From a virus, in IMG/VR virus record IMGVR_UViG_3300032241_001373, positions 1 through 32,551 of that record: a stretch of DNA of 32,551 nucleotides; one strand, 5' to 3'. Shown piece after piece: positions 3,540 through 32,422 of the stretch. Under the pieces are notes generated by a model, which ran no database searches, had not been told where the DNA came from, and saw only the letters and a list, made by a program, of their open reading frames with translations. A program made the position numbers and the translations under genes. Every line of letters begins with the position of its first letter. Position 1 is the first letter of the stretch.

Positions 3540-3616
3540 CGCCGGAACAACAACTTCTCGTTGCCATAATTGCTTGCGTAGCATTCACTTACTTCATGCT
3601 ATCTCAAAGACGATGA
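3536..3616 (+). CDS. 26 aa putative membrane micropeptide
   Basis: A very short frame, MTPEQQLLVAIIACVAFTYF onward, whose ATG overlaps the previous stop and whose stop overlaps the next start, both as ATGA. Residues about 7-20 are hydrophobic and the end (SQRR) is positively charged, giving a single small transmembrane helix with a likely cytoplasmic C terminus. The double overlap is the main evidence that it is translated; if not, the metallopeptidase-like gene at 3613 would have no coupled start. Function unknown. Confidence 0.5.
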   Translation: MTPEQQLLVAIIACVAFTYFMLSQRR

Positions 3617-3903
3617 GCGCATTTACCAAAGTAGGAGAAATTAAAATATATGGAGACACATGGGAATATGGATGGGGGTATTGCGGGAAAACCCCCAACG
3701 GCCCTGCCATTGGCAAGTGCTACTACCATCTCAAGAGAATTGCGATTAACAAGCAATATCACAAACATTGCCCACTTTCAGACGTATTGGCACATGAGAT
3801 CCTCCACGCCTACCTTCCCATCGCAAAAGAAGAGTTCGTTGAGGAATTCGGCTTTAATGTGGGACAAGCTCAAAAACAAATGGAATACAATGTGTCTCCC
3901 TGA
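3613..3903 (+). CDS. HExxH zinc metallopeptidase-like protein
   Basis: Product of 96 aa from the ATG at 3613, which overlaps the stop of the 26 aa gene; the same frame extends to an ATG at 3574, but that ATG lies inside the preceding gene. The motif HEILH at 61-65 within DVLAHEILHAYLP is a gluzincin or SprT-like zinc site, with a downstream Glu-rich helix (EEFVEEFG, 73-80) that could give the third ligand. At 96 aa it is a minimal catalytic core. Similar phage proteins are annotated as SprT-like or ImmA/IrrE-like. Target unknown; host regulator cleavage and virion protein processing are both possible. Confidence 0.65.
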   Translation: MSAFTKVGEIKIYGDTWEYGWGYCGKTPNGPAIGKCYYHLKRIAINKQYHKHCPLSDVLAHEILHAYLPIAKEEFVEEFGFNVGQAQKQMEYNVSP

Positions 3904-3952: not shown

Positions 3953-4146
3953 AATTCACAGACAAGCAATTTGACGAGTGGTACGACACAGAGGGAATTA
4001 GATTCTATTCTCAGAATCATGGGAATGCAGATGGTCACTATGACTATATGAAGAAAGCCTACCTAGACGGCTTTTATGCTGGACTTAATTCAGCCACTCA
4101 GATATTAAACGAAATCACTAATGACGATACGCCTCCAGTTGCTTAA
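3949..4146 (+). CDS. Hypothetical protein, 65 aa
   Basis: An acidic, aromatic small protein (DEWYDTEGIRFYSQ, DYMKKAYLDGFYAGL) probably folding as two or three helices; no Cys cluster or membrane segment. The general pattern (WY...KKAYLDGFYAG) recalls small phage proteins of the KAWEAG type, but no family can be named. AGAGGA about 9 bases before the ATG is a moderate Shine-Dalgarno site. Its 3' end overlaps the next gene by 26 bases. Confidence 0.6.
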   Translation: MKFTDKQFDEWYDTEGIRFYSQNHGNADGHYDYMKKAYLDGFYAGLNSATQILNEITNDDTPPVA

Positions 4147-4786
4147 TGGTAATAGCGTCCCAACAGGGATGTTTCGCTACACCGTTCCCGAAACTGGAGC
4201 GAAGTTCGGCAGCCAGCATACAATGGATGGCCTTTTGGGTCTTGTTGCTGCCCACTACCGGGACAACAACATTCCCATTCCCTCTGATTTAAAAGAGAGG
4301 GTTGAAGATCAAATGTGTCAGACTTTGCCGCAGGGCAATTGTCAATACACAGATGGAACGCCATATAAAGGGTATCAAAGTTCCCTCACGATGGAAAACT
4401 TGATGAAGGGGATTAGTTCATTGGCCTATATGATGAAGGAATCCATTCTGGGTAATGATGTGTTTGTTAGTCAGGAGGAGGCCGATCAAAGGGCTTTAAT
4501 CTGCACTCGTTGCTACCTCAATATGGGGAATGGAGTGTGTATGGGGTGCGGTGCTATGAAAGCTGTAACTGACTTAGCCTCAAATGTTAAAGGGGGGCGC
4601 ACTACCAAATACGATAGTCAGCTTCAGAACTGCGGAATATGCGGATGCAGGAATGATGCAATTGTCCATGTCAATAGAAAAGTGTTGCTTTCAAACGAAA
4701 AACCAGAGACAACAGAAGGTCGCCCATCTTGGTGTTGGGTTAAAAATCCAGACCTTAACCAAGCACAAGCCAATTTAACCACATGA
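4121..4786 (+). CDS. Cys-rich Zn-binding protein upstream of portal
   Basis: Product of 221 aa. The N-terminal third is an alpha/beta segment; the C-terminal half carries two metal-type clusters, Cys128/131/140/143 (CTRCYLNMGNGVCMGCG) and Cys171/174/176 (CGICGCRND), followed by HVNRKVL. The pattern A-x-x-RA-x-IC-x-x-C ... L-x-x-C-x-x-CxC ... VH resembles a phage protein family often found beside portal or terminase genes. I infer a structural zinc protein of the head or packaging cluster; function unknown. ATG 4121 overlaps the previous gene by 26 bases; ATG 4169 is a shorter alternative. ATGA overlap with the portal gene. Confidence 0.7.
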   Translation: MTIRLQLLNGNSVPTGMFRYTVPETGAKFGSQHTMDGLLGLVAAHYRDNNIPIPSDLKERVEDQMCQTLPQGNCQYTDGTPYKGYQSSLTMENLMKGISSLAYMMKESILGNDVFVSQEEADQRALICTRCYLNMGNGVCMGCGAMKAVTDLASNVKGGRTTKYDSQLQNCGICGCRNDAIVHVNRKVLLSNEKPETTEGRPSWCWVKNPDLNQAQANLTT

Positions 4787-7003: not shown

Positions 7004-7264
7004 ATGAGCGAGGCATGGACAAAAAAAGCTGGCAAGAATCCCAAGGGAGGATTGAACGCCAAGGGGAGGGCTTCTTATAATAAAGCACATGGTGGACACT
7101 TGAAGCCTCCTGCTCCTCATCCTAAGAATGAGAAGGATGCCGCAAGGAAGAAGAGCTTCTGTGCCAGAATGCAAGGAATGAAAAGCAAGATGACAAGCCC
7201 TGCAAAGAAGAAAGATCCTAACAGCAGGATTAACAAGTCCCTTCGGGCTTGGAACTGCCGATAA
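7004..7264 (+). CDS. DUF6321-like basic phage protein
   Basis: Product of 86 aa, very rich in Lys and Arg. It matches a small family seen in marine and other podoviruses: WTKKAGKNPKGGLNAKGRAS at 5-24, then GGHLKPPAP and RKKSFCARMQGM. The family role is unknown; the charge and conserved Gly/Asn/Lys segments suggest DNA or RNA binding, perhaps a virion or packaging-associated protein. AGGAG 6 bases before the ATG is a good Shine-Dalgarno site, and the gene starts 1 base after the portal stop, so it is in the head cluster. Confidence 0.7.
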   Translation: MSEAWTKKAGKNPKGGLNAKGRASYNKAHGGHLKPPAPHPKNEKDAARKKSFCARMQGMKSKMTSPAKKKDPNSRINKSLRAWNCR

Positions 7265-7709: not shown

Positions 7710-7913
7710 ATGAAAACCTCCGCCCAAGATGCGGCTAGGGATGAAATGCGGGAGCAGATTGTTGCTCTCATCTATCACAAGTACGTCTATTTTCGGACGT
7801 TCTTTGGCAAAGAAGACCAGACAGCACTTGCCCTCAAGGGGCTAATCCTTGACATAAGAGAAGACCAAGCAAAAGAAATAGAAACACAGAATGAGCAAAT
7901 GTTTAGTTATTGA
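7710..7913 (+). CDS. Hypothetical protein, 67 aa
   Basis: A soluble helical protein with a Tyr/Phe cluster in the middle (YHKYVYFRTFFGKE) and a charged C-terminal helix (LDIREDQAKEIETQNEQ). It leads a short cassette: it has the CCAACC leader, and its last 23 bases overlap the ATP-grasp gene, so the two are very likely translated together. Being directly coupled to a ligase makes it a candidate partner or substrate, but nothing in the sequence proves this. Confidence 0.6.
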   Translation: MKTSAQDAARDEMREQIVALIYHKYVYFRTFFGKEDQTALALKGLILDIREDQAKEIETQNEQMFSY

Positions 7914-9171
7914 TCATGGAATTTTCACGGCCTTTGCAAAAAGGCTGGCTGAAGATCACCAAGTATTCTATTTCGTTCCCTACGCTGATCGTTCCTTTCC
8001 TATTCATGGCCCAGCTATGATTGGGGAGGGAATTGAAGGCGTGGAGAGAGTTGAGGATATGTGGAGGTTGGTAGATGAGGTGGACTTCATCGTGTTCCCT
8101 GATGTGGGATTCTATCAACTACAAGAATATCTTCGCTCTAGGGGATACAAAGTCTGGGGAGCTGGATTAGGAGAGAAGCTAGAAGTGCAGAGGTGGAGGG
8201 CTAAAGAGACCATGAAGGCTCTTGATCTCCCAGTTGGCAAGTGTGCCTTGGTAACTGGCATGACTGAGCTTCGTGACTACATTAGCGATAATGAGGACGT
8301 ATATGTCAAGATAAGTGGCTTTAGAGGACTAGCGGAGACATTCCATGCCTACAATCTTTCAAGTGCCTCACAGAGGCTTAACGAGCTGGCATTAGCCCTT
8401 GGAGGGGCGGCTGAAGTGTTTCCATTCGTTATTGAGCATAAAGTGGAATCAGTGGTGGAAGCTGGCTATGATGGATATTGCATTGATGGTAAGTTCCCAT
8501 CCACTTGCTTAACTGGCGTGGAGATAAAGGACTCATCATACCTCGGATCCGTGAGGGACTATGACAAGCTCTCAGATCCAGTTAAGGAGGTGAATGATAA
8601 GCTGGCTCCTTTTCTTCAAGAGGCTGGCTATCGTCAGTTCTTTTCAACTGAGATTAGAGTCACGGAGGAAGGCACACCCTATCTGATTGATCTCACCACT
8701 CGATGCCCGGCTCCTCCCTCTGCCCTGTATTGGGAAATGATTGAGAACGTGGGGGAGATTATTGAGTCTGGAGCTAACGGAGAGCTTGTGGAGCCTGTCT
8801 GGAGGGCTAAATACGGAGCCTTGGCAGTGATCCATTCTGACTTTGCTGCCGAGCGTTGGTGTCCAGTGTGGAATGATCCTAAAGTGGATCAGTGGATCAA
8901 ATGGCGCAACTACTGCAATATTGACGGACAAGGCTATATCGTCCCCACGGATGGCGTGAAAATGATTGAAATAGGGGATTGCATTGGAATTGGCGACACT
9001 ATTGAAGAAGCTATTTCCGCTTGCCAAGAACACGCAGAAGGCGTAAAGGGAGACAAGGTGGTTGTAATGACGGATGCGTTATACGATGGCCTAGATGAAA
9101 TAACCAAAGCTGAAGAAAATGATATTATCTTCACTGAGGACGAACTACCAACCAAAAAAGAACTAATCTAA
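7891..9171 (+). CDS. ATP-grasp ligase, PurD-like
   Basis: Product of 426 aa with the ATP-grasp layout. Residues 1-90 resemble a pre-ATP-grasp domain (KCLVIDHG, then FIVFPDVG). GLGEKLEVQRWRAKETMKAL at 92-111 matches the K...K-x-x-(M/L) helix of PurD and carbamoyl-phosphate-synthase-like ligases. Lys140 (VYVKISG) is the likely ATP-binding lysine. TEIRVTEEGTPYLIDLTTR at 253-271 is the metal-binding strand, with D267-x-T269 where PurD usually has E-x-N. The enzymes activate a carboxylate as acyl-phosphate and join it to an amine. It is complete and sits among head genes rather than in a purine cassette, which argues against a metabolic PurD. The substrate is unknown. Confidence 0.75.
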   Translation: MSKCLVIDHGIFTAFAKRLAEDHQVFYFVPYADRSFPIHGPAMIGEGIEGVERVEDMWRLVDEVDFIVFPDVGFYQLQEYLRSRGYKVWGAGLGEKLEVQRWRAKETMKALDLPVGKCALVTGMTELRDYISDNEDVYVKISGFRGLAETFHAYNLSSASQRLNELALALGGAAEVFPFVIEHKVESVVEAGYDGYCIDGKFPSTCLTGVEIKDSSYLGSVRDYDKLSDPVKEVNDKLAPFLQEAGYRQFFSTEIRVTEEGTPYLIDLTTRCPAPPSALYWEMIENVGEIIESGANGELVEPVWRAKYGALAVIHSDFAAERWCPVWNDPKVDQWIKWRNYCNIDGQGYIVPTDGVKMIEIGDCIGIGDTIEEAISACQEHAEGVKGDKVVVMTDALYDGLDEITKAEENDIIFTEDELPTKKELI

Positions 9172-9447
9172 ATGACACATCAGGAATGGAGAGCCAACCC
9201 TCTCCTTGCTACGGAACTGAAGCAATTGCTACAGAACCCAACAATTAAGGCAGCATTGGAAATGTTAGAGAAGCAGACAATGGCTTCCACACTTGCCGGT
9301 AATGGCCTCCTTCAGTTGGCAGACAAAGCCAGCATTTTGTTTGGCTATGATGCAGGACGTTATAGCATATTGTCAGACCTTCAAAACCTAGCAACAGTTC
9401 CAGAACAGCATACCGAAGTTTTGCCATCTTACGATCCACAATTTTAA
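9172..9447 (+). CDS. Hypothetical protein, 91 aa
   Basis: Starts directly after the ATP-grasp stop with no spacer; a CCAACC lies 24 bases before the ATG but inside the ligase reading frame. The sequence is helical with a Leu-rich middle (ATELKQLLQNPTIKAALEML) and an aromatic tail ending SYDPQF. Small helical genes just before a scaffold gene can be head completion or scaffold-assisting proteins. No family recognised. Confidence 0.6.
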   Translation: MTHQEWRANPLLATELKQLLQNPTIKAALEMLEKQTMASTLAGNGLLQLADKASILFGYDAGRYSILSDLQNLATVPEQHTEVLPSYDPQF

Positions 9448-21912: not shown

Positions 21913-22857
21913 ATGGCTTCCCTCACCTATGCACAGGCTCAATCGCTTTTAGCTCCGTTTATTACGAGCCAAGGAAGCTCAGATCCTGCTGTTGGTAGTG
22001 CAATTAACTTTGTTAATGAGAGGTTTATCACTGGTGGGCAGTGGAGGGGAAATCGATTCATCTACACTTTCAATGGGCAAATCACGCTCAATAGCGTTGC
22101 TCTCACTTATTCTGGTACCACCATTACTGGCACTTATGCCAATCATGGGTTGTCTGTGGGGACTCTGATCACAATCAATTCAGTGACTCCATCGTCTCAA
22201 ACGGCCTATACTGGAACTTTCCAGCTCACGGCAGTTACGACCAACACATTCACTTTCACTTCCATCTATACCCCCACTGCCAATGCCACTGCCACGGTTA
22301 TTGCCAGTGCCTTCACTTCTGACTCCAATGGAACTTATATTGACACTCCTGTTGGCGTTGACGCTATACTTCGTATTATCGCTGTAGATACTTATCAAGC
22401 GGGAGAGATTGGAACAATCATGAATGATTGGTTCACTTTTGAAGAAGCGGGGCTTGGTTATCTTCAGCAGCAGTATTCTGGAGACTTCCAGCTTGTTAGG
22501 CAAGGGCCGTCTCCTGCTTCTGCCTTGCCGTCAGGAACGACTAGCGATAGCCAGAGATATAGGCTTATTGGAGCATATCCTGAGATCCGCACCATGTATT
22601 GTTTGGTGAAGAGGGCTTATGTGCCGCTAGTGAATCCTACGGATTTGCTCATTCCATCCAACATCAATGCGTATCGTTATGGCGTACAGGCTTACAACTA
22701 CGAGAATATTAACGAGCTAGAGAGGGCGCAAGTTTATTGGGAGCTTGCCTATAAGTGTCTTAATGATGCTCTTGAAGCTTATGAAGAGGGAGTGCAGGAT
22801 AGTGTGGAGATTCAATGGAACGCATTCCGTCCTAGCTTGGTTCAAAACTTGATTTAA
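21913..22857 (+). CDS. Head-tail adaptor-like protein with FCCH-like insert
   Basis: Product of 314 aa. The ends (1-40, SLLAPFITSQGSSDPAVGSA, and 230-300, EIRTMYCLVKRAYVPLVNPT and LERAQVYWELAYKCL) are helical as in tail-tubular or gp11-type adaptors that ring the portal. Between them, residues 58-135 form a beta module (HGLSVGTLITINSVTP, AYTGTFQLTAVTTNTFTF) of the kind often matched to the ubiquitin-activating-enzyme FCCH domain in phage proteins. A similar module appears in the 783 aa protein. Adaptor identity is inferred from size and context. Confidence 0.55.
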   Translation: MASLTYAQAQSLLAPFITSQGSSDPAVGSAINFVNERFITGGQWRGNRFIYTFNGQITLNSVALTYSGTTITGTYANHGLSVGTLITINSVTPSSQTAYTGTFQLTAVTTNTFTFTSIYTPTANATATVIASAFTSDSNGTYIDTPVGVDAILRIIAVDTYQAGEIGTIMNDWFTFEEAGLGYLQQQYSGDFQLVRQGPSPASALPSGTTSDSQRYRLIGAYPEIRTMYCLVKRAYVPLVNPTDLLIPSNINAYRYGVQAYNYENINELERAQVYWELAYKCLNDALEAYEEGVQDSVEIQWNAFRPSLVQNLI

Positions 22858-22858
22858 T

Positions 22859-23467
22859 ATGGCAATTAGCACACTAGGATCATCACCATTTGCATCAAGC
22901 TTTATTTTGCCATCTGGACAGACTCCAGAAGAGGCGCAACGTGAAAAGCTTGCTGGTCAAATCACGGCAGAAAAAGAAAAACAAAAATCCAGTGGGTTGC
23001 AAAAATTAATTATTGAACAGGGAAGCATGGGATTAAAGCCCATAACCCCCTTTTCATCTCTTTCCCAAACCGAGAAATTTGCCATACAGCCAATCACGGC
23101 TGAAGCATCAAACGTGATGTCTGGTGGAGAAACCACATTTGGGGGAGGCGGGGGCAGTGGAATATTTGCAAAGCAGTTTGCAATTGGAGAATCTGGCCCT
23201 TCTGCATTTGATACAAGGGCGGGAGCTGGCAAAGAAAATCCAATTCAAATGGGGTCTCCCTTTGCAGGAGCATTTGGCGCAAAGCAAGAAGCTAAAGACG
23301 CCATTGGAAAAGAAATTAAACAGCCTTCTGTAAATACATCATCATCATCTTCAATGCCCACTGATGAAGAGGGATTTGCTGATTTTCATAATTTTGCTAA
23401 AGGATTTTTTAGCGGAATGAACAATCCGAATAAAAACAAAGCACAATCACAATATGGCAACGATTAA
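22859..23467 (+). CDS. Gly/Ser-rich internal or virion protein
   Basis: Product of 202 aa, disordered and rich in Ser, Gly, Lys and Gln; a charged helix at about 20-55 (EEAQREKLAGQITAEKEKQK), a Gly-rich stretch (TTFGGGGGSGIF) and an acidic-aromatic end (EGFADFHNFAKGFFSG). It starts 1 base after the adaptor-like gene and overlaps the next gene by 14 bases. Small disordered proteins at this place in podovirus clusters are often internal core proteins; no family recognised. Confidence 0.5.
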   Translation: MAISTLGSSPFASSFILPSGQTPEEAQREKLAGQITAEKEKQKSSGLQKLIIEQGSMGLKPITPFSSLSQTEKFAIQPITAEASNVMSGGETTFGGGGGSGIFAKQFAIGESGPSAFDTRAGAGKENPIQMGSPFAGAFGAKQEAKDAIGKEIKQPSVNTSSSSSMPTDEEGFADFHNFAKGFFSGMNNPNKNKAQSQYGND

Positions 23468-24758
23468 AGACGCTTACTCTTCCCCAATGGATGCCACTCA
23501 AGTATTGGGGAATCCTGACGCCCAGAACACCGCACAGAGAAGCAAAAATATTTCTGATGGGCTTATGGATGATTACAAGGAAGCTGCTAATCCAGATTCT
23601 AATAAGATTCCCAGCTCCAAAGAGCTTTCTGGCGCAGTTGAAGTTTTGCCTCAGCCAGTAGGAAGAGAAATTCCTAGTGCTGGCTCGACGCCCACTGTTA
23701 GTGGCGTGAAGGCAGAAAGAGAACAGCTTGCAATACAAAAGCAAGCTAAAGACATAGAAGCTCAATATGGATTTAGTCCTGAGGACTCTAGGGCAATGGC
23801 TAGCCAGATGATGAATCTGTATAAAGAGTCTAAGAAGCAACAAGTGGCGGAAGCAATGGCTGCCCTTACTGCAAGACAAAGAGAAACGGCGGCAGCAACA
23901 ACTTATGCTAATTTAGAAGTAAGGAGGGCTAATTTAGATCCAATGTCCAAAACATATATTTCTGATTTGGCTAAAATCCACGCTGAGGCACTTCCTAGTT
24001 TAACAGGAACGGCTTATGCTGATAAGGCCGACAAGGGATATGAAGCGGCAAGAAAAGATTATGTTTCATTGCAAGGGGTTCAGCAAAAGTTCATGACTCA
24101 AACTCCAGAGTATCAAGGTAAGATTGAGGGAGCCAAACAAGAAGCAAAACTTCCTTATCAGAGAGCACTGGAACAAGAAAAGGATAGGGCGGCTCAAGAA
24201 AGAATTAGACTTGCTGCTTCATTAAAACCAATTAAAGAGCAAACCATTACTCAAGCTGGAAATCAATTTAAGAGTGAAACTGGATTTAGCCCAGCAATAT
24301 TAAATGCTCCAGAGTTTAATGATGCTAAAGAAATTACTGAAGGAATGGGCAAAGTCAGGGGGAATGTAGTAAATGGCGTTTTCCAACCAAACCCACAGGG
24401 AGATACTTACCATGTTGTTGATAACACTGGATTAACGCCTAAGATTGGAAACATTCCAGTGGAGATTCATGATCGTTATCTTCCCACTGCAACAACAGCA
24501 GGAAGAACAAAAGCAAAGGGGCAGACCATAACCCCTCCGACTGGAATTCAAATCACACCTGAGTTTGGCACTTCCACTGCGCCAATGGAAAAGCAATCTG
24601 CCGAGCCAGCTCAATCAGCTCCAGAACCAAAGCCAGAACCGGCTGCTGAATCTATGCGAGCATTAGATGAACAAACTGCTTTAGACTTTTTAAACAAAGC
24701 TGGAGGAGACGTAAATAAAGCCCGTGACTTGGCAAAGCAAGCAAAGTATAAATTCTAG
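23454..24758 (+). CDS. Probable internal virion protein
   Basis: Product of 434 aa with long coiled-coil segments (about 80-140 and 205-260, with Gln/Ala/Glu/Lys-rich helices), a beta-rich middle around 300-345 (VNGVFQPNPQGDTYHVVDNT), and a Pro-rich linker (PEPKPEPAAE) before a short C-terminal domain (TALDFLNKAGGDVNKARDLA). That C-terminal motif, LDFLNKAGGD-x-x-KA-x-x-LAKQAKY, recurs at the end of phage internal or ejection proteins. It would lie inside the capsid and travel with the DNA. It is read 14 bases before the upstream gene stops and lies directly before the giant gene. Confidence 0.5.
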   Translation: MATIKDAYSSPMDATQVLGNPDAQNTAQRSKNISDGLMDDYKEAANPDSNKIPSSKELSGAVEVLPQPVGREIPSAGSTPTVSGVKAEREQLAIQKQAKDIEAQYGFSPEDSRAMASQMMNLYKESKKQQVAEAMAALTARQRETAAATTYANLEVRRANLDPMSKTYISDLAKIHAEALPSLTGTAYADKADKGYEAARKDYVSLQGVQQKFMTQTPEYQGKIEGAKQEAKLPYQRALEQEKDRAAQERIRLAASLKPIKEQTITQAGNQFKSETGFSPAILNAPEFNDAKEITEGMGKVRGNVVNGVFQPNPQGDTYHVVDNTGLTPKIGNIPVEIHDRYLPTATTAGRTKAKGQTITPPTGIQITPEFGTSTAPMEKQSAEPAQSAPEPKPEPAAESMRALDEQTALDFLNKAGGDVNKARDLAKQAKYKF

Positions 24759-24764
24759 CCTGTT

Positions 24765-27700
24765 ATGGCTGACATCTTTGACAAGCTTACCGCACCAAAA
24801 CAAGATGCGCCAAAAGGCGACATTTTTGATTCTATTTTAGCTAACAAACAAGGAGGTGACAACAACAGTGAAAAAGACATCAATCAGCCAAAAGCCAACT
24901 CGGATCGCAATGCGCAACGAGAAGCCAACCAACAAGGCGGATCTTCCAATGAAGCCAAGTTATATGCCCCCCAACAACAACGTGAAGGGAACAGGCAAGA
25001 GCCTATCGGGAGTATCGACGCCAGTAAAGATGGAAGCCAACAAAATGAAGCTCTGCTAAGTCAGGGCGACATATTTGATCGGATTGCATCAAAAGGAGGT
25101 GAAGGAGTTGAAAAAAGGAAGCAAAATGCCCAAGCCCAAAATGGAAGCCAAGGGCAAGAAGATGGGCAAGGGCTACGAAGCCAAGTCAATGCGGGGGAGC
25201 AAGGGCAAGTAACCTCTCCTCTAAAAGTTGAAACGGCTTTCGGGGTTCCATCCCCCGAAGCTAAAAAAGAAGAAATCAAGGCGGCTCCAGTTAGAACAAT
25301 GTCTGAAAAGGCAAAGGATTTTGCTTTTGGAACATTAGCTAGATATGAAACTGGTATTAATCGTGGCATGGCTGGCGTTGCTAGAACTCTGGAAGCTGTT
25401 GGAATCCCTCATGGATTAACAGAACATTTTGCTAATGCGGCAGAAGACGCAGAAACAGATTGGCGTATCCTTGCTGGAGCAGAGCCATTAAAGCAAGGTT
25501 CTGCTGCTTCCACTGCGGCAGAGATTGTATCTGGACTAGCTAAATTGCCAGCGTATGCACTGGCCGGCCCTGTTGGAGTGGCGGCGGGCGTAATGGATGC
25601 CTATGGAAATGCAAAAGAGAATTTTAGGAATAAGCTTCTTGCAAAAGGAACCAGTGAAGAAGAAGCAAACAAACAAAGCACATTAAGGGCAACCATATCA
25701 ACCGTTGCCACAATTCCTCTTTATTTACTTGCTGGTGCGGCAAGTCAAAAAATTGCATCTAGGGTGATACCTAATCTTGAGAATGAGTTAATTAAAAAGG
25801 CATCAACAGGAGGAATTAACTTTGCTCTTAACTCTGTTGCTAGTGCTTCAGCTAGAGCCGTTGATGCAGGGCTATCTGGAGAAGATCCAGTGAAGGCTGC
25901 AAAAGAATTAAGTATTGGCGGAGCATTGCAAGATGCGTTCTTTGCCATTCATTCCACTGTTGAGAACTTTAAAAACAAAGCTGATAAAGGCGAGATCGAG
26001 GAAGCAATTAAAGAATTGCCAGATGCAACTCTAGCAATTATTGCAAATCATCCAAAGTCTCAATACAAGGATGTTGCAAATGCTGAGATTCAACAAAGAG
26101 AGCAAGTCAAGAAAACCCAAGACTTATCTCAAGAAGCTCAATCAACTGATGCGCCCATCACTGCTGAGGTGATCAAGCAAGGAGATGTATTTGAGAAGCC
26201 ATCTAAAATTATTTCATTTCCTGCCCTTTCGCAAGAAGAGGCAACCAAACAAGCAGAGGCTTTAGCCAAAGCACAACCAACAACACCAAGTGAAAAAGTC
26301 ACAACCAAAGCAGAAGAGCAAGGCGCAGGTGGGATACCTCCTGTCGAAGGGAAGCCCGCTATCGGGAAAGCAGAAGGAGAAGCTGAAGGGGGAACTCCAC
26401 AAGGGATCAGTGAAAGTAAAAAAGAAGTAAAGGGAACTCGCATTGCGGCGGCGGCATTTAAGCCAGAGGGATCAACCGAAGTTTTTACTGGCGCAAACCA
26501 CGATGAAGCTTTGGGCGAAGCCCTTAAAGCAAATGCCATCACGCAAGAGTATCATGATGCCCATGTGGGTTCTGCAAATGCAGAAAAAAGAAATGAGGCT
26601 GAGTTTGGATATACAACTGACGCAATAGATGAATCTGGAAATCCAGAAACAATTGATCGTGAGCAGGGCCATGATCTAGCCCAAGAATCAGGACAAGCTA
26701 TATACAAAACCCCAGAAGAGCATGAGTTCCCAACTGAAAATGGAGCGTTGATTCACAGCACGGAAGTGAGGGGGCTTCAAGCTGAGAGAGTTCCATTAAA
26801 GCCAGAAGAAAAAGAATTTGTTAAGGGACTTGCTGAAGAAGCAAGAAAAAATAAACCCGACATGGGAAGACCCGGAGCCGCTTCCACTGAAGAGTATATG
26901 CAGAGGTATCAATCTTCTGGTGCTTCCTATTTGGCTGATGGTATTTATGATTTTGGAAAGTGGTCAGTTGAAATGCTTAAAGAATACGGCGAGGGCGTTA
27001 GAGAGTATTTGCCAGAAGCTTTTGAGCGTTCTAAAATGCTGATTAATGATCTTGCCACGGCTAGTGCGCAAGCCGAACGCAAAACGCCAGAAACCAAGCA
27101 AGTAAAGGTTAATGAAAGGGCCGCATATCTTGATTCATTAAAGGCTCAACAAAAAGCAGGAGAGGCTGGATTTAAGCGTGGAACTAAAGAAGCAACTGAA
27201 GCAGTTAGGGCAAAGCTTCAGCCTACCATAGACACATTAAGGAATACCAATCGTTTGCTTAAAACCACTATTGCCAATTCTGTTTCTAAGGCTAAACAAC
27301 TTTCAGCTTACTTCAAAGGAATGGAAAGGGGATCTATTGCTAGTGCAAAGAATGCAAGGGCACAAGAGCAGATGGCTGTTAGATGGCACGAGGCAGACAA
27401 AAATACCATTTGGAAACAAGTTCATGATTATTTGTTTAAGGAGATTCCTCAATCTGGAGTAAGGCTTTCTCCTTCGGATGTAAAAACATTTTCAAATAAA
27501 CTTAATCGCATCCTTACCACTCCTTACAATCCAAGGGGAGGAAGAAAAGTTGGAGAAGACTTTGTATCCACTTCTGAAATGATGTGGCAAAACGTGAAGG
27601 ATCTTACTAACACAATTCAAGCAAAGGCAGAGGAAGTTCATCTTACTGCACTTAGGGAAGAGGTGAAGGACATGGTTAAAAAGTCCTTGGCATCAAAAAT

Positions 27701-30062
27701 TGTTAGCCCAGAGTTTAGGGCAGCAATTAGAGAGCGTATTTCTGGGATTGATCTTGCTCGGATTACTCCCAAGAGAGAAGCAAAGATTAGAGACATACAA
27801 GCCGCATTAGAAGCAGAGGGGAGGTCGTTGCCTTCTCGCTTGCTTGGCAAGCTGAATGATCTATCTAAGATTGATATTAAAGACTTATCGGCAGATGAAT
27901 TAAATGCGTTGAAAGCTGATGTGGAAGAGTTTGATCGCATGGGGCGTGATTACACCAAAACATTCAAACAAGCTCAAGATGAGGAGCATCAAGCATTGCT
28001 TTCTAAGCTTGCAGAAGACGCATACGCAAAACCAATTAATTCACTAGAAAAGATTATTAGGGATACTAAAGTTGGCGGCATTCAAGCGGTAAAAGACAAG
28101 GCGTGGAATATGATTGCATCAAGCCAAAAGGCTTTGTCTGTTTTTGAAAAGGCCTCCACCAACATTCCTGTATTGTTTCAACTATTAGACGGAAGAGCTG
28201 GCGGATTTTTAAACAAGACTGTGTATGGGCCAGTGTTGCTTGCTCATAGAATTTTTAGGAAAGAAATGGATTTATTTACCAAGGAGGCTTATGAAATTGC
28301 TCAAAAGCATAATCTTGATAGAAACAATTTTGTGAAGGTTGCGATTCACGCACAGTTGGAAGGAGGATACCCATTAGAAGAAATTACTAAGTTTTCTCAA
28401 GATCCAGAACTTCCAAAGATCATTAAAGACTATCAAGAGAACGGTTTGAATGCCGGAGAACAAGAGTTTTATAATTATGCTCGCTCTGTATTTGATGATC
28501 AGATTCCAGAGCTAACAAGGTTTTCAAACGATTATCTTAACAAAGAAGTTGAGCTTTATAAGAATTACTGGCCTCGTGCAGTTGATACAAGAAAGCTTGA
28601 TATTGGAAAAAGAGAGAACCAGCAAATCATGGAGGATCTTTTTGATTCCCTTGAATCTCCACGCAAGACCACAACTATTAAAAGCTCTGTAAGATATGGG
28701 CGTAAGGAAGGCGCAAGCATTCCTCTTAATCTTAATGCAATGGAGGTTTTCTTAAACCATCAAAAGCAGTGGCTTTATATGAAGAACTTGCAGCCTGTTC
28801 TTTCTAAAGTTAATAGAGTGGTTCAAGATTCATTATTTGAAGAAAAGTATGGACAAACAGGAAAACAATTTCTCAATGATTATATTGATGTGGTTGCAAG
28901 AGATGGAAAGTATTACAAGGCTGGATATGAAAAAGGACTGGACGCAGTTCGCAACATTGCAATGGTGGGATATATTGGGCTTTCCAAAAATCAATTTAAG
29001 CACGTTGCAAACTATCCACTTGGAATGGCCGAAGCTGGAGGTGCTAATTGGTGGGCTAGGGGGGTTATTGCGGCCTTCACCAAAGAAGGAAAAGAGTTTA
29101 TTGAAAAGTACATTTCAGAATTAAAAGAAAGAGCTGGAGGAGACATTACAATTCAAGAAGCGGCAGAAGGAAAGTTTTCAAAAGCAAGAAGAGTTTTGTT
29201 TGCGGTGGATAGGTCTCTTGATTATATTAACTCCGTTGGCATTTCTCTTGGTAAATACATGAGGGAAATGCACGAGTCTGGAGCAGATTGGGAAGAGTTT
29301 CACAATACCATTCCTTCTGGAGAGTCTTTAAATTCAATGCACGAATCTGTGGTTAAGACGGTTGGCAGCCCCGCTATTGTTGATCAACCTCTCATAACTT
29401 CCAAGGGAACTGGAGTTGGATCAAAGTCTGTGGCAAAAGCTATCATGGCGTATTCATCTCCAAAGTTGGTTAAATGGGGAAGAATTAGAACGCTGCTTTC
29501 TAAAAATGAAATGGGACAAAGGGAAGCTGGAAAGGCTTCGCTGGTTGCCACTGCATTATTAGCTTCTTCTTTAATCGAAGCTGGAGTGGTTGTTGGAAGC
29601 GGAAAAATACTTTTAGCCGCCACTCATTCTCTTTTAAATGCACTTGGGTTTAGAACATTTGATAGGAAGTATGAAGAAAATAAATTGAAGGCATATTTGC
29701 TAGATGCCATGTCTGATCTTGTTTCCGCTTTTCCGGGCGGGACTATTGGAAAATCTTTTATATCAGCTTATCGCTATCCTCAGCAAGCTGAGAAAATATT
29801 TACATCCACTGGCATTCCTCCGATTGATACCGCAACTCAATTTGCCTCAAGAGCATATCTTGCTCTTTTTAATCATGATAAAAAAAGCATCATTGCGCTT
29901 GGAGAAACGATTGCTCAAACCATGCTTCCTGTATCCACTCTGCTAACAATGGAAAGAGAAGGAGCTAAATTGCTAGATGCTAGGGCGCAGCAAAAAAGAG
30001 ATATATTGGAGATTAAAAAAGAGCGAGAAGAAAAATATGGCAAAAAGCCCAAAAGGAAATAA
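24765..30062 (+). CDS. Giant internal virion / DNA ejection-type protein
   Basis: Product of 1765 aa. The N-terminal 480 residues are low-complexity and carry repeated short motifs: DIFD at 3-6, 19-22 and 102-105, and DVFE at 474-477. A hydrophobic, Ala/Gly-rich region (about 255-375, including ATISTVATIPLYLLAGAA) follows. Residues about 790-1110 are helical and charged; about 1110-1500 is a mixed alpha/beta region; near 1590-1630 is another hydrophobic stretch (ATALLASSLIEAGVVVGSGK). This is the layout of large podovirus internal proteins that form an ejection channel. I see no polymerase or lytic motif, so an enzyme domain is not claimed. A large toxin-like or polyvalent protein is an alternative. 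Confidence 0.55.
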   Translation: MADIFDKLTAPKQDAPKGDIFDSILANKQGGDNNSEKDINQPKANSDRNAQREANQQGGSSNEAKLYAPQQQREGNRQEPIGSIDASKDGSQQNEALLSQGDIFDRIASKGGEGVEKRKQNAQAQNGSQGQEDGQGLRSQVNAGEQGQVTSPLKVETAFGVPSPEAKKEEIKAAPVRTMSEKAKDFAFGTLARYETGINRGMAGVARTLEAVGIPHGLTEHFANAAEDAETDWRILAGAEPLKQGSAASTAAEIVSGLAKLPAYALAGPVGVAAGVMDAYGNAKENFRNKLLAKGTSEEEANKQSTLRATISTVATIPLYLLAGAASQKIASRVIPNLENELIKKASTGGINFALNSVASASARAVDAGLSGEDPVKAAKELSIGGALQDAFFAIHSTVENFKNKADKGEIEEAIKELPDATLAIIANHPKSQYKDVANAEIQQREQVKKTQDLSQEAQSTDAPITAEVIKQGDVFEKPSKIISFPALSQEEATKQAEALAKAQPTTPSEKVTTKAEEQGAGGIPPVEGKPAIGKAEGEAEGGTPQGISESKKEVKGTRIAAAAFKPEGSTEVFTGANHDEALGEALKANAITQEYHDAHVGSANAEKRNEAEFGYTTDAIDESGNPETIDREQGHDLAQESGQAIYKTPEEHEFPTENGALIHSTEVRGLQAERVPLKPEEKEFVKGLAEEARKNKPDMGRPGAASTEEYMQRYQSSGASYLADGIYDFGKWSVEMLKEYGEGVREYLPEAFERSKMLINDLATASAQAERKTPETKQVKVNERAAYLDSLKAQQKAGEAGFKRGTKEATEAVRAKLQPTIDTLRNTNRLLKTTIANSVSKAKQLSAYFKGMERGSIASAKNARAQEQMAVRWHEADKNTIWKQVHDYLFKEIPQSGVRLSPSDVKTFSNKLNRILTTPYNPRGGRKVGEDFVSTSEMMWQNVKDLTNTIQAKAEEVHLTALREEVKDMVKKSLASKIVSPEFRAAIRERISGIDLARITPKREAKIRDIQAALEAEGRSLPSRLLGKLNDLSKIDIKDLSADELNALKADVEEFDRMGRDYTKTFKQAQDEEHQALLSKLAEDAYAKPINSLEKIIRDTKVGGIQAVKDKAWNMIASSQKALSVFEKASTNIPVLFQLLDGRAGGFLNKTVYGPVLLAHRIFRKEMDLFTKEAYEIAQKHNLDRNNFVKVAIHAQLEGGYPLEEITKFSQDPELPKIIKDYQENGLNAGEQEFYNYARSVFDDQIPELTRFSNDYLNKEVELYKNYWPRAVDTRKLDIGKRENQQIMEDLFDSLESPRKTTTIKSSVRYGRKEGASIPLNLNAMEVFLNHQKQWLYMKNLQPVLSKVNRVVQDSLFEEKYGQTGKQFLNDYIDVVARDGKYYKAGYEKGLDAVRNIAMVGYIGLSKNQFKHVANYPLGMAEAGGANWWARGVIAAFTKEGKEFIEKYISELKERAGGDITIQEAAEGKFSKARRVLFAVDRSLDYINSVGISLGKYMREMHESGADWEEFHNTIPSGESLNSMHESVVKTVGSPAIVDQPLITSKGTGVGSKSVAKAIMAYSSPKLVKWGRIRTLLSKNEMGQREAGKASLVATALLASSLIEAGVVVGSGKILLAATHSLLNALGFRTFDRKYEENKLKAYLLDAMSDLVSAFPGGTIGKSFISAYRYPQQAEKIFTSTGIPPIDTATQFASRAYLALFNHDKKSIIALGETIAQTMLPVSTLLTMEREGAKLLDARAQQKRDILEIKKEREEKYGKKPKRK

Positions 30063-30070
30063 GATACGTC

Positions 30071-32422
30071 ATGCCAACTTCCAAACAACCTAGATTTCCC
30101 CATCCTCCCTTAGAGCAGGGAGTGGCGCAGTATCCCACGCCGGTTATCCCAGATTTCATTACTCAGTCTGGGCATATAATCTTGGTGGAGAAGGTTAGTG
30201 CAGAGAAGGGCAATTACAATCCTCAGTCTCCTGCCGTTAGCGATACCAATCCTGTAATCTACACAGGAAGGGACGCAAAAAAATGGCCTTCCACTCTTTA
30301 CTTGGTTCACATAAGGCCAGATGAAACTGGAGAGTTTGTTTATCGCTATTGGGCAAATGATCGCACGTTGGCTTCTCAAGATCCTTGGAACTATGGAATT
30401 GCTTATTCTGGCGGAGATCCATCTTACCCAACTTATACGAGAGAGTATATTGTCCCCAGAAGTCAATACGCATCCGTTGCAGTGGGAGGACAAGATCCTG
30501 TTTTTGGAGCTGGTCAGGGAGTGACGTTAAATATTAGTGGCACAACTGCCACCATCACTGGAACCAATTTTAGTTATGCGGTGGGTGCAACGATTTACGT
30601 TTATACCCAAAGCACAACTACGCAGACCACTCAACAGAAATATGCGTTAGGTTCTTTCCCTCTCCTCACTGCTTCTGCAACTACGCTCACTTACGCAGTT
30701 CAGTCTGGAGCTACCAATCCAAGCATCCCTGTTTTCATTAACCCCACTGTTATTTCGGAACAACAGATGGAACCCCTTGGGGAAGACAATCCGCTTCGTT
30801 CTCGATATGTGAAGGTGAAGAGGGTTTATGAACCCATTCCTAGCACAGTATTGGTAACTAATGAAGTTAAGCCGGGGTTAATGGGGATTACAGCTAAGAA
30901 TGATCAGCTTGTTAATGCCACAGCAAATCCCAATCCATTAAGTGTTGCCAACCCCATCACCAATGGAAGTCAAAGCGTTTTGGCTTCAACTGTTGAGCAT
31001 ATCAGTGCCAACAAGTCAAATCTTACTACAGTCATTACTACCGGCCCGTATAGCCTCTCTGGGGACTCTTTAAACAAGTATGGAGTCACTGAGACCATAA
31101 CGGAATCAATCGTTGCCGCAGGAACTTCAGCTACAACAGGAAACTTATCTGGAAATATTGTTCCATTACTTGTAAGTGATGACATCAGTCCTATTGATTC
31201 AACAAAGTCCCAGAGGAAGCAAGTGGTCATGGACAATGTTCCCCCTGCTCTTGTTACTTACGAATCCACGGCAGACAATGCGATTGTTCAGAATGTGACT
31301 AGCCATCTGAGTCGCAACATATCTAGCGGAGTGGGAGCTTTCACTCAGCCTATCACTCCAGCTTCACAAGTTGTTTATTATCCAATTGCCGCCACATCGA
31401 GCAACGCTGGTGCATCTGGATACGCCACCCTCACTTTTTCTGCTCTTCCAAATATTGCGGTTGGTGACTTGGTGTCCATGTCTGGCGTGTTTGCAAGCGG
31501 GTGGGGTCTTCCCAATGTCACGGCAACTGGAGTTTTAAATGGATATGCCACCATTACTTTTCAAAGCTTGTCATCTACGGACGTAGTGGTTGGAGATCAA
31601 ATTAGGATTAGTGGTCAATCTAATAATGGTTGGGCGGCTGGAACATACACGGCAACAGCAGTCTATCTTTCCACAAAGGTTGTTGTGTTGAGCTTGCCAG
31701 TAACTGGAGCATCTGGCCCAACAGGATACGCACAAAACACCACCACTAAATATGCAGTCACGGCAGTTGACACTACGAATTTTATTATTACGTTAAGCTT
31801 GCCGGTGGTAAATGATTCACTCAATGCTGGAACTGGAAATTATACAATCACTCAAAACAATAGCAGATTGCTTCAAACATCTGATTCTGATATTGGATTT
31901 CCTTGGGTGAGGAGAATTAGCAAGTATCTTCCAACGGCCTACACTTCTGTTAATGGCTATGTTCAATTGCCTCCACCTCGCACTGAATACAAAACAGCTC
32001 AATTCAGTTTTCCGGGACTAATATACACTTGGGGTGACACTTCTAGCGGCACTACAGCAACTTTCACATACCCTCAAAACAGATTGCCTCTTGATATAAC
32101 TTGCACTCAAAAGCACGTTTATACATATTATGATTATCAGCCAAATGTTTCGTCATTGAAATTCTTCAAGGTTGTTGCGCAGCCTTGGGCAATTAAGTTC
32201 TTTGGTATTCCTAAAAATACAATCCATCCTGCCGCTCCTCTTTCATTTAAAAGCGACTCATCAACAGACAATGGAGTCACTTATGGAGTCTTTGGAGGGG
32301 CCGCATCCACACCAACAACTTATAAGATAGGTCAACAGATTCTCATTGGAGCTGATGTTCAGCTATGGCAAGGTGGAATCTATGTTCAGCGTCTCATCTA
32401 CACTCAAGAACCTTTAAGTTAA
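30071..32422 (+). CDS. Large beta-rich virion protein
   Basis: Product of 783 aa rich in Thr, Ser, Val and Gly. The front (1-130) has many Tyr and Pro (REYIVPRSQYASVAVG). Residues about 150-225 and 450-560 hold beta modules: a tandem pair starts GYATLTFSALPNIAVGD at 450 and GYATITFQSLSSTDVVVGD at 491, about 41 residues apart, resembling the FCCH-like insert in the 314 aa protein. The C-terminal part is Tyr/Phe-rich and strand-like. It fits a tail, appendage or head-decoration protein, with no enzyme motif seen. Confidence 0.55.
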   Translation: MPTSKQPRFPHPPLEQGVAQYPTPVIPDFITQSGHIILVEKVSAEKGNYNPQSPAVSDTNPVIYTGRDAKKWPSTLYLVHIRPDETGEFVYRYWANDRTLASQDPWNYGIAYSGGDPSYPTYTREYIVPRSQYASVAVGGQDPVFGAGQGVTLNISGTTATITGTNFSYAVGATIYVYTQSTTTQTTQQKYALGSFPLLTASATTLTYAVQSGATNPSIPVFINPTVISEQQMEPLGEDNPLRSRYVKVKRVYEPIPSTVLVTNEVKPGLMGITAKNDQLVNATANPNPLSVANPITNGSQSVLASTVEHISANKSNLTTVITTGPYSLSGDSLNKYGVTETITESIVAAGTSATTGNLSGNIVPLLVSDDISPIDSTKSQRKQVVMDNVPPALVTYESTADNAIVQNVTSHLSRNISSGVGAFTQPITPASQVVYYPIAATSSNAGASGYATLTFSALPNIAVGDLVSMSGVFASGWGLPNVTATGVLNGYATITFQSLSSTDVVVGDQIRISGQSNNGWAAGTYTATAVYLSTKVVVLSLPVTGASGPTGYAQNTTTKYAVTAVDTTNFIITLSLPVVNDSLNAGTGNYTITQNNSRLLQTSDSDIGFPWVRRISKYLPTAYTSVNGYVQLPPPRTEYKTAQFSFPGLIYTWGDTSSGTTATFTYPQNRLPLDITCTQKHVYTYYDYQPNVSSLKFFKVVAQPWAIKFFGIPKNTIHPAAPLSFKSDSSTDNGVTYGVFGGAASTPTTYKIGQQILIGADVQLWQGGIYVQRLIYTQEPLS

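Follow-up and report, generated by a model that had tools for sequence, protein, structure and literature searches.

The window, which is the whole stretch of 32,551 nucleotides analysed here (IMG/VR virus record IMGVR_UViG_3300032241_001373), carries in order a portal-like gene, two small genes, a 67-aa gene (g67), a ligase gene, a 91-aa gene (g91), a scaffold-like gene and a large-terminase-like (TerL-like) gene (Table 1). The ligase ORF starts with ATG and is uninterrupted, and g91 begins directly after its stop codon. The initial annotation described a 426-aa ORF between portal-like and scaffold-like genes, overlapped by the 67-aa gene and abutted by the 91-aa gene, and these coordinates were confirmed. 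By length, position in the gene order and phage-family homology, the portal-like gene is probably a portal; the same criteria, together with composition, suggest that the scaffold-like gene is probably a scaffold. The portal-like and TerL-like genes showed no curated profile match in Pfam or PHROGs, a search of PDB sequences for their identification returned 0 matches, and no major capsid gene was identified among the late window ORFs tested against PHROGs.

Several other genes of the window were recorded. An HExxH (SprT-like) ORF of 109 aa (3574-3903) is located upstream of the portal-like gene and is kept in 39 loci, including the window. A Cys-rich 221-aa protein with possible zinc ribbons (4121-4786) is encoded directly before the portal-like gene, and its relatives were found near the portal at L102, L105, L123 and L124. 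A DUF6321 protein (7004-7264; PF19846, E = 1.4e-25) is encoded beside the portal-like gene, and only some relatives have DUF6321. Large late proteins of 434, 1765 and 783 aa, without convincing PHROG match, are encoded within 21913-32422.

Table 1. Positions in the window of the ligase gene, its neighbours and the candidate catalytic sites.
Feature	Position	Strand	Basis
Portal-like gene, 739 aa	4783..7002	+	HHalign to phage family c3, E = 4e-45
g67, 67-aa gene	7710..7913	+	Overlaps ligase by 23 nt; in 51/51 testable close relatives
PurD-fold ATP-grasp ligase (predicted), 426 aa	7891..9171	+	ORF; AF2 pLDDT 84.7; PurD fold Z 27.8; 54 close relatives
K140 codon	8308..8310	+	Invariant; placed by HHalign near the PurD 'VKAD' ATP-binding lysine
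E254 codon, candidate metal ligand	8650..8652	+	Invariant; putative role taken from ATP-grasp enzymes generally
D267-L-T269-T-R271, putative replacement of the PurD E-F-N-x-R metal-ligand loop	8689..8703	+	HHalign alignment
g91, 91-aa gene	9172..9447	+	Between ligase and scaffold-like gene; in 54/54 testable close relatives
Scaffold-like gene, 401 aa	9451..10656	+	HHalign to family c4, E = 1.5e-35
TerL-like gene, 562 aa	10653..12341	+	Motifs GCAAAGKT and MVIIVDEA, seen on visual inspection

Two viral scans recovered close relatives of the window ligase, with 64-98% identity, at about 54-55 IMG/VR loci. Within the window clade, the dN/dS value of the ligase was 0.083, well below those of g67 (0.157), g91 (0.195) and the scaffold gene (0.205); the values of the portal-like and TerL-like genes were 0.072 and 0.059, respectively. 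These loci and this dN/dS value indicate that the ligase is a real gene. It is under strong purifying selection and is a core gene of the window phage clade. There, this family, which has no PHROG and no direct match in Pfam, shows a level of conservation close to that of portal and terminase. More distant relatives (33-45% identity) were found on viral contigs as long as 92 kb, and the family is common to more than 100 uncultured phage contigs. Searches of INPHARED and of plasmids with the ligase family proper gave 0 matches, as did the first scan of a prokaryote genome collection with the ligase. The second scan of that collection yielded one match, on a MAG contig with terminase, portal and capsid genes, and all other relatives found were in viral contigs.

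Direct searches with the window ligase sequence against Pfam, PHROGs, INPHARED and PDB sequences gave no usable match, and the NCBIfam purD profile (TIGR00877) scored only 15.1 bits, as compared with a cut-off of 288. A match of 12 A1 members to phrog_11958 (E down to 6e-4) covered only 84 C-terminal positions and was set aside as chance-like. A model built by AlphaFold2 with 44 relatives as input (pLDDT 84.7, pTM 0.85) showed a full-length PurD (GARS) fold. In comparisons of this model with known structures PurD was at the top (Foldseek E = 1.2e-17; VIA-align Z = 27.8 with 368 aligned residues), and the 13 best matches were all PurD. Remote phage relatives, which were reached via a shared neighbour gene, matched Pfam GARS_A/GARS_C above cut-off. 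By HHalign, the window family was connected to phage intermediates with 99% probability (E = 5e-18), and the intermediates to PurD with 99.5% (E = 2e-22), both as pairwise values. The window ligase is thus predicted to have an ATP-grasp fold, and profile homology through the phage intermediates probably places it in the GARS-like superfamily. Structure prediction and structure comparison therefore agree with the proposal that the ORF encodes a PurD-like ATP-grasp enzyme, on which direct sequence search was silent.

The gene order in the window clade is portal-like, g67, ligase, g91, scaffold and TerL-like, and that in one distant clade is TerL, SpeD where present, ligase and portal. In many lineages, whose gene orders differ, a terminase, portal or scaffold gene is found near the ligase, and profile-confirmed portals adjoin it in lineages other than that of the window. 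No purine operon context was seen for any of the ligase relatives found. The initial annotation was right on both points of context: the place within the head gene cluster is a conserved site in the head/packaging module, and the gene does not look like a purine gene, since its relatives are in viral contigs (the single MAG contig has terminase and portal) and outside purine operons. A location among head genes does not itself prove a virion role. The explanation that we prefer, with a probability of roughly 0.4, is that the gene encodes a PurD-derived ATP-grasp carboxylate-amine ligase, which has moved out of purine metabolism and is now a core head/packaging gene in a broad set of uncultured phages.

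The two small genes were proposed earlier as partners or substrates of the ligase. They were present in all testable close relatives (51/51 for g67 and 54/54 for g91), and g67, g91, the scaffold-like and the TerL-like genes have the same order wherever a window-clade contig extends far enough, but they were undetected in distant relatives. HMMs of g67 and g91 found no match at distant ligase loci, and the lone match, at L128, was in a 66%-identical close relative. The survey of gene neighbourhoods thus bears out the pairing for the window clade, and not for the distant relatives. The distance between g67 and the ligase exceeded 100 nt in 9 of 51 loci. A spacing of 15 nt or less separates g91 from the scaffold gene at 45 of 53 loci, and from the ligase at 47 of 54; being tied as tightly to the one as to the other, g91 could be no more than a head gene. 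Because of this equal linkage, and because both genes went undetected in the distant relatives, it is doubtful that they are dedicated substrates. Two further candidates were dropped: comparison gave no support for homology between g67 or g91 and the small neighbours seen in distant phages, and the Pfam matches of g91 to L27/EAD11 were at chance level.

These observations bear on an alternative, in which the enzyme works as a peptide or protein ligase and attaches an amino acid or peptide to a protein of the virion, for instance the scaffold, portal or 91-aa protein. Addition of amino acids or peptides to proteins is carried out by enzymes in other branches of the ATP-grasp superfamily. This chemistry, together with the gene order inside the head module and the small genes in all testable close relatives, is consistent with such a role. 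However, the nearest fold is that of a small-molecule ligase, PurD, the distant relatives keep the ligase where g67 and g91 are undetected, and the recurrent partner in one clade is SpeD-like, and we consider a virion-protein ligase doubtful. The idea of a tailoring ligase, as raised in the initial annotation, stands as a reasonable class of function, but without the small genes as its specific partners or substrates.

In one distant clade, a homologue of SpeD (AdoMet decarboxylase) is encoded directly upstream of the ligase. Among 11 representatives, the two genes overlap by 4 nt in four, and the spacing is 5 nt or less in six overall. The SpeD carriers make up 11 of the 13 rows of one branch (support 97/92). 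A search with SpeD only gave 18 loci, nine of them on additional contigs; the ligase was present on eight of the nine, and the ninth contig ends after SpeD. The AdoMetDC fold of the SpeD-like gene product was confirmed by structure matches (2iii, 1vr7). Against PF02675, the copies of L106 (4.7e-17) and L130 (1.4e-8) were above cut-off, and some others were below. Equivalents of Ser63 and Cys83 are kept in the aligned representatives. His68 of the T. maritima enzyme, which is needed for self-processing (PMC10407285), corresponds to D or E in 10 of the 11 representatives and to H only in the L106 copy, so that most of these partners, in which the self-processing set of S63, H68 and C83 appears incomplete, may not decarboxylate (PMC10407285). 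The L106 copy (L106:7543-7968), a more canonical SpeD with His68 kept, occupies the site of its relatives' divergent SpeD-like gene, and a replacement within the clade is possible.

Some SpeD homologues of phages are known to act as decarboxylases of ornithine or arginine (PMC9992855, PMC10407285). The SpeD-like partner shares its fold, PF02675 and the Ser63/Cys83 equivalents with SpeD and these phage ODC/ADC derivatives, but differs from them in the D/E at the His68 position, in the pairing with an ATP-grasp enzyme and in its absence from the window clade. A full-text literature search with incomplete coverage found no report of SpeD paired with an ATP-grasp ligase. Spermidine synthase was rejected as a further partner, with 0 in 36 records, and the SpeD product is therefore not obviously for phage-made spermidine. 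The recurrent partner in this distant clade is thus a SpeD-like gene missing from the window, and not the small genes to which the role had been given.

It is also possible, though doubtful, that the ligase is a host-directed or defence-related metabolite enzyme, which would make or remove a small molecule, for example a polyamine conjugate or a nucleotide signal, to the benefit of infection, and whose place in the late module would serve timing only. Polyamines are manipulated by phages (PMC9992855), and a passage of PMC10580990 that cites Iyer 2009 gives modification of the host wall or of metabolites as a suggested role of phage amidoligases. However, the adjacency of the ligase to head genes is kept across differing gene orders, unlike that of typical mobile accessory genes.

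Phage ATP-grasp enzymes are less rare than the initial annotation assumed, and the window ligase is no new category, as several other phage ATP-grasp and amidoligase families are already known (PMC3890496, PMC7824862). LUZ24-like and related phages have Amidoligase_2, GATase and COOH-NH2 ligase genes in early modules (PMC3890496). The amidoligase/ATP-grasp genes of LUZ24-like phages, of the type described by Iyer et al. (2009), are like the window ligase in belonging to a phage-borne amide ligase class, and differ from it in their early-module setting with those genes. The Amidoligase_2 profile had no match in 36 ligase-family records, and control genomes were silent as well. The R2K/CDC123-like phage enzymes, for which protein modification has been proposed (PMC7824862), are also phage-borne ATP-grasp enzymes, but belong to another branch of the superfamily, whereas the window protein matches PurD best.

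The window ligase and PurD/GARS (TIGR00877, PF01071, PF02843) have in common the full-length fold, the domain order, the ATP-grasp core and a C-terminal 'GxTxxEAxxxA'. They differ in the profile score, in the head/packaging context and in two motifs: in the HHalign alignment, the N-terminal GGxGREHA of PurD becomes xDxGxF in the ligase family, and EFNxRFGDPE becomes DxTxR (ExNxR to DxTxR), with FGDPE gone and the metal-ligand Asn replaced by Thr in the window ligase. Across 32 diverged relatives, down to 33% identity, K140, R145, E190, E211, K213, E254, R256, D267 and R271 are invariant. They include a putative ATP-binding lysine (K140) and putative acidic metal ligands (E254 and D267), which were assigned from the profile alignment and not from a bound structure. 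The invariant residues and the lost PurD motifs argue for a ligase that is probably active, with a changed substrate. A catalytically dead structural or assembly factor on a PurD fold would suit the location, the change from Asn to Thr at the metal ligand and the altered glycine-rich loop, but is quite improbable, because even members with only 33% identity retain the putative ATP- and metal-binding K140, E254, D267 and R271 without change, and because the gene is genetically linked to an enzyme family (SpeD). It is very improbable that the gene is an auxiliary purine gene, encoding a divergent yet genuine PurD that raises host GAR synthesis, since in spite of the fold and the weak purD match the score of 15 bits is far below the cut-off of 288, the PRA-binding and RFGDPE motifs are missing and purine genes are not adjacent. 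By cut-off, motifs and operon context, the protein does not appear to be a PurD (GAR synthetase) equivalog, which cautions against labelling such ligase genes as purine 'auxiliary metabolic genes'.

In the preferred explanation, a PurD-derived ligase of the head/packaging module, the enzyme would be catalytically active and expressed together with the packaging genes. As expected of the fold, ATP would phosphorylate a carboxylate to an acyl phosphate, which would be held by K140 and a metal bound by E254/D267, and attack by an amine would give an amide. The amine may be a small decarboxylated amino acid or a polyamine-like compound, supplied by the SpeD-like partner where present and by the host in the window clade, and the product may serve particle assembly or DNA packaging. 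SpeD was found in 0 of 24 window-clade records, so the amine assignment is not directly transferable to this clade, for which the substrate is one that we infer. A more specific proposal is a packaging-module pathway of amine conjugation, in which the PurD-derived ligase, in one branch with a SpeD-derived decarboxylase, makes an amide-linked amine for the particle or DNA. We regard this pathway as rather unlikely; if true, it would add a novel type of chemistry for phage particles or for DNA condensation. The reciprocal link with SpeD provides a concrete and testable substrate hypothesis, and possibly leads to an assembly-linked modification that has yet to be described.

A more remote PurD-like ligase, unannotated, is present in a circular 'complete' phage genome (MW202796.1:42140-43456), with GNAT and stabilization protein genes nearby. 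The commonest neighbour of the remote phage PurD-like ligases is a small HExxE family (c8) of about 125-150 aa with the motif HExxE...PYHxEHxxA..IER and no Pfam/PHROG match in the members tested. It is adjacent to them on the same strand in 51 of 80 loci, and was found at L102, L105, L110, L113, L186, L191-L194, L216, L240, L248, L250 and L254 (for example, L254:4615-4995). It was rejected as an obligatory partner, as a PurD-like ATP-grasp gene occurs in 54 of the 80 c8 loci (51 adjacent) and the others are without one; in those, c8 lies beside other genes, several of them portal- or terminase-like. The HExxH 109-aa ORF of the window gave a weak HHalign match to this HExxE family (E = 0.046).
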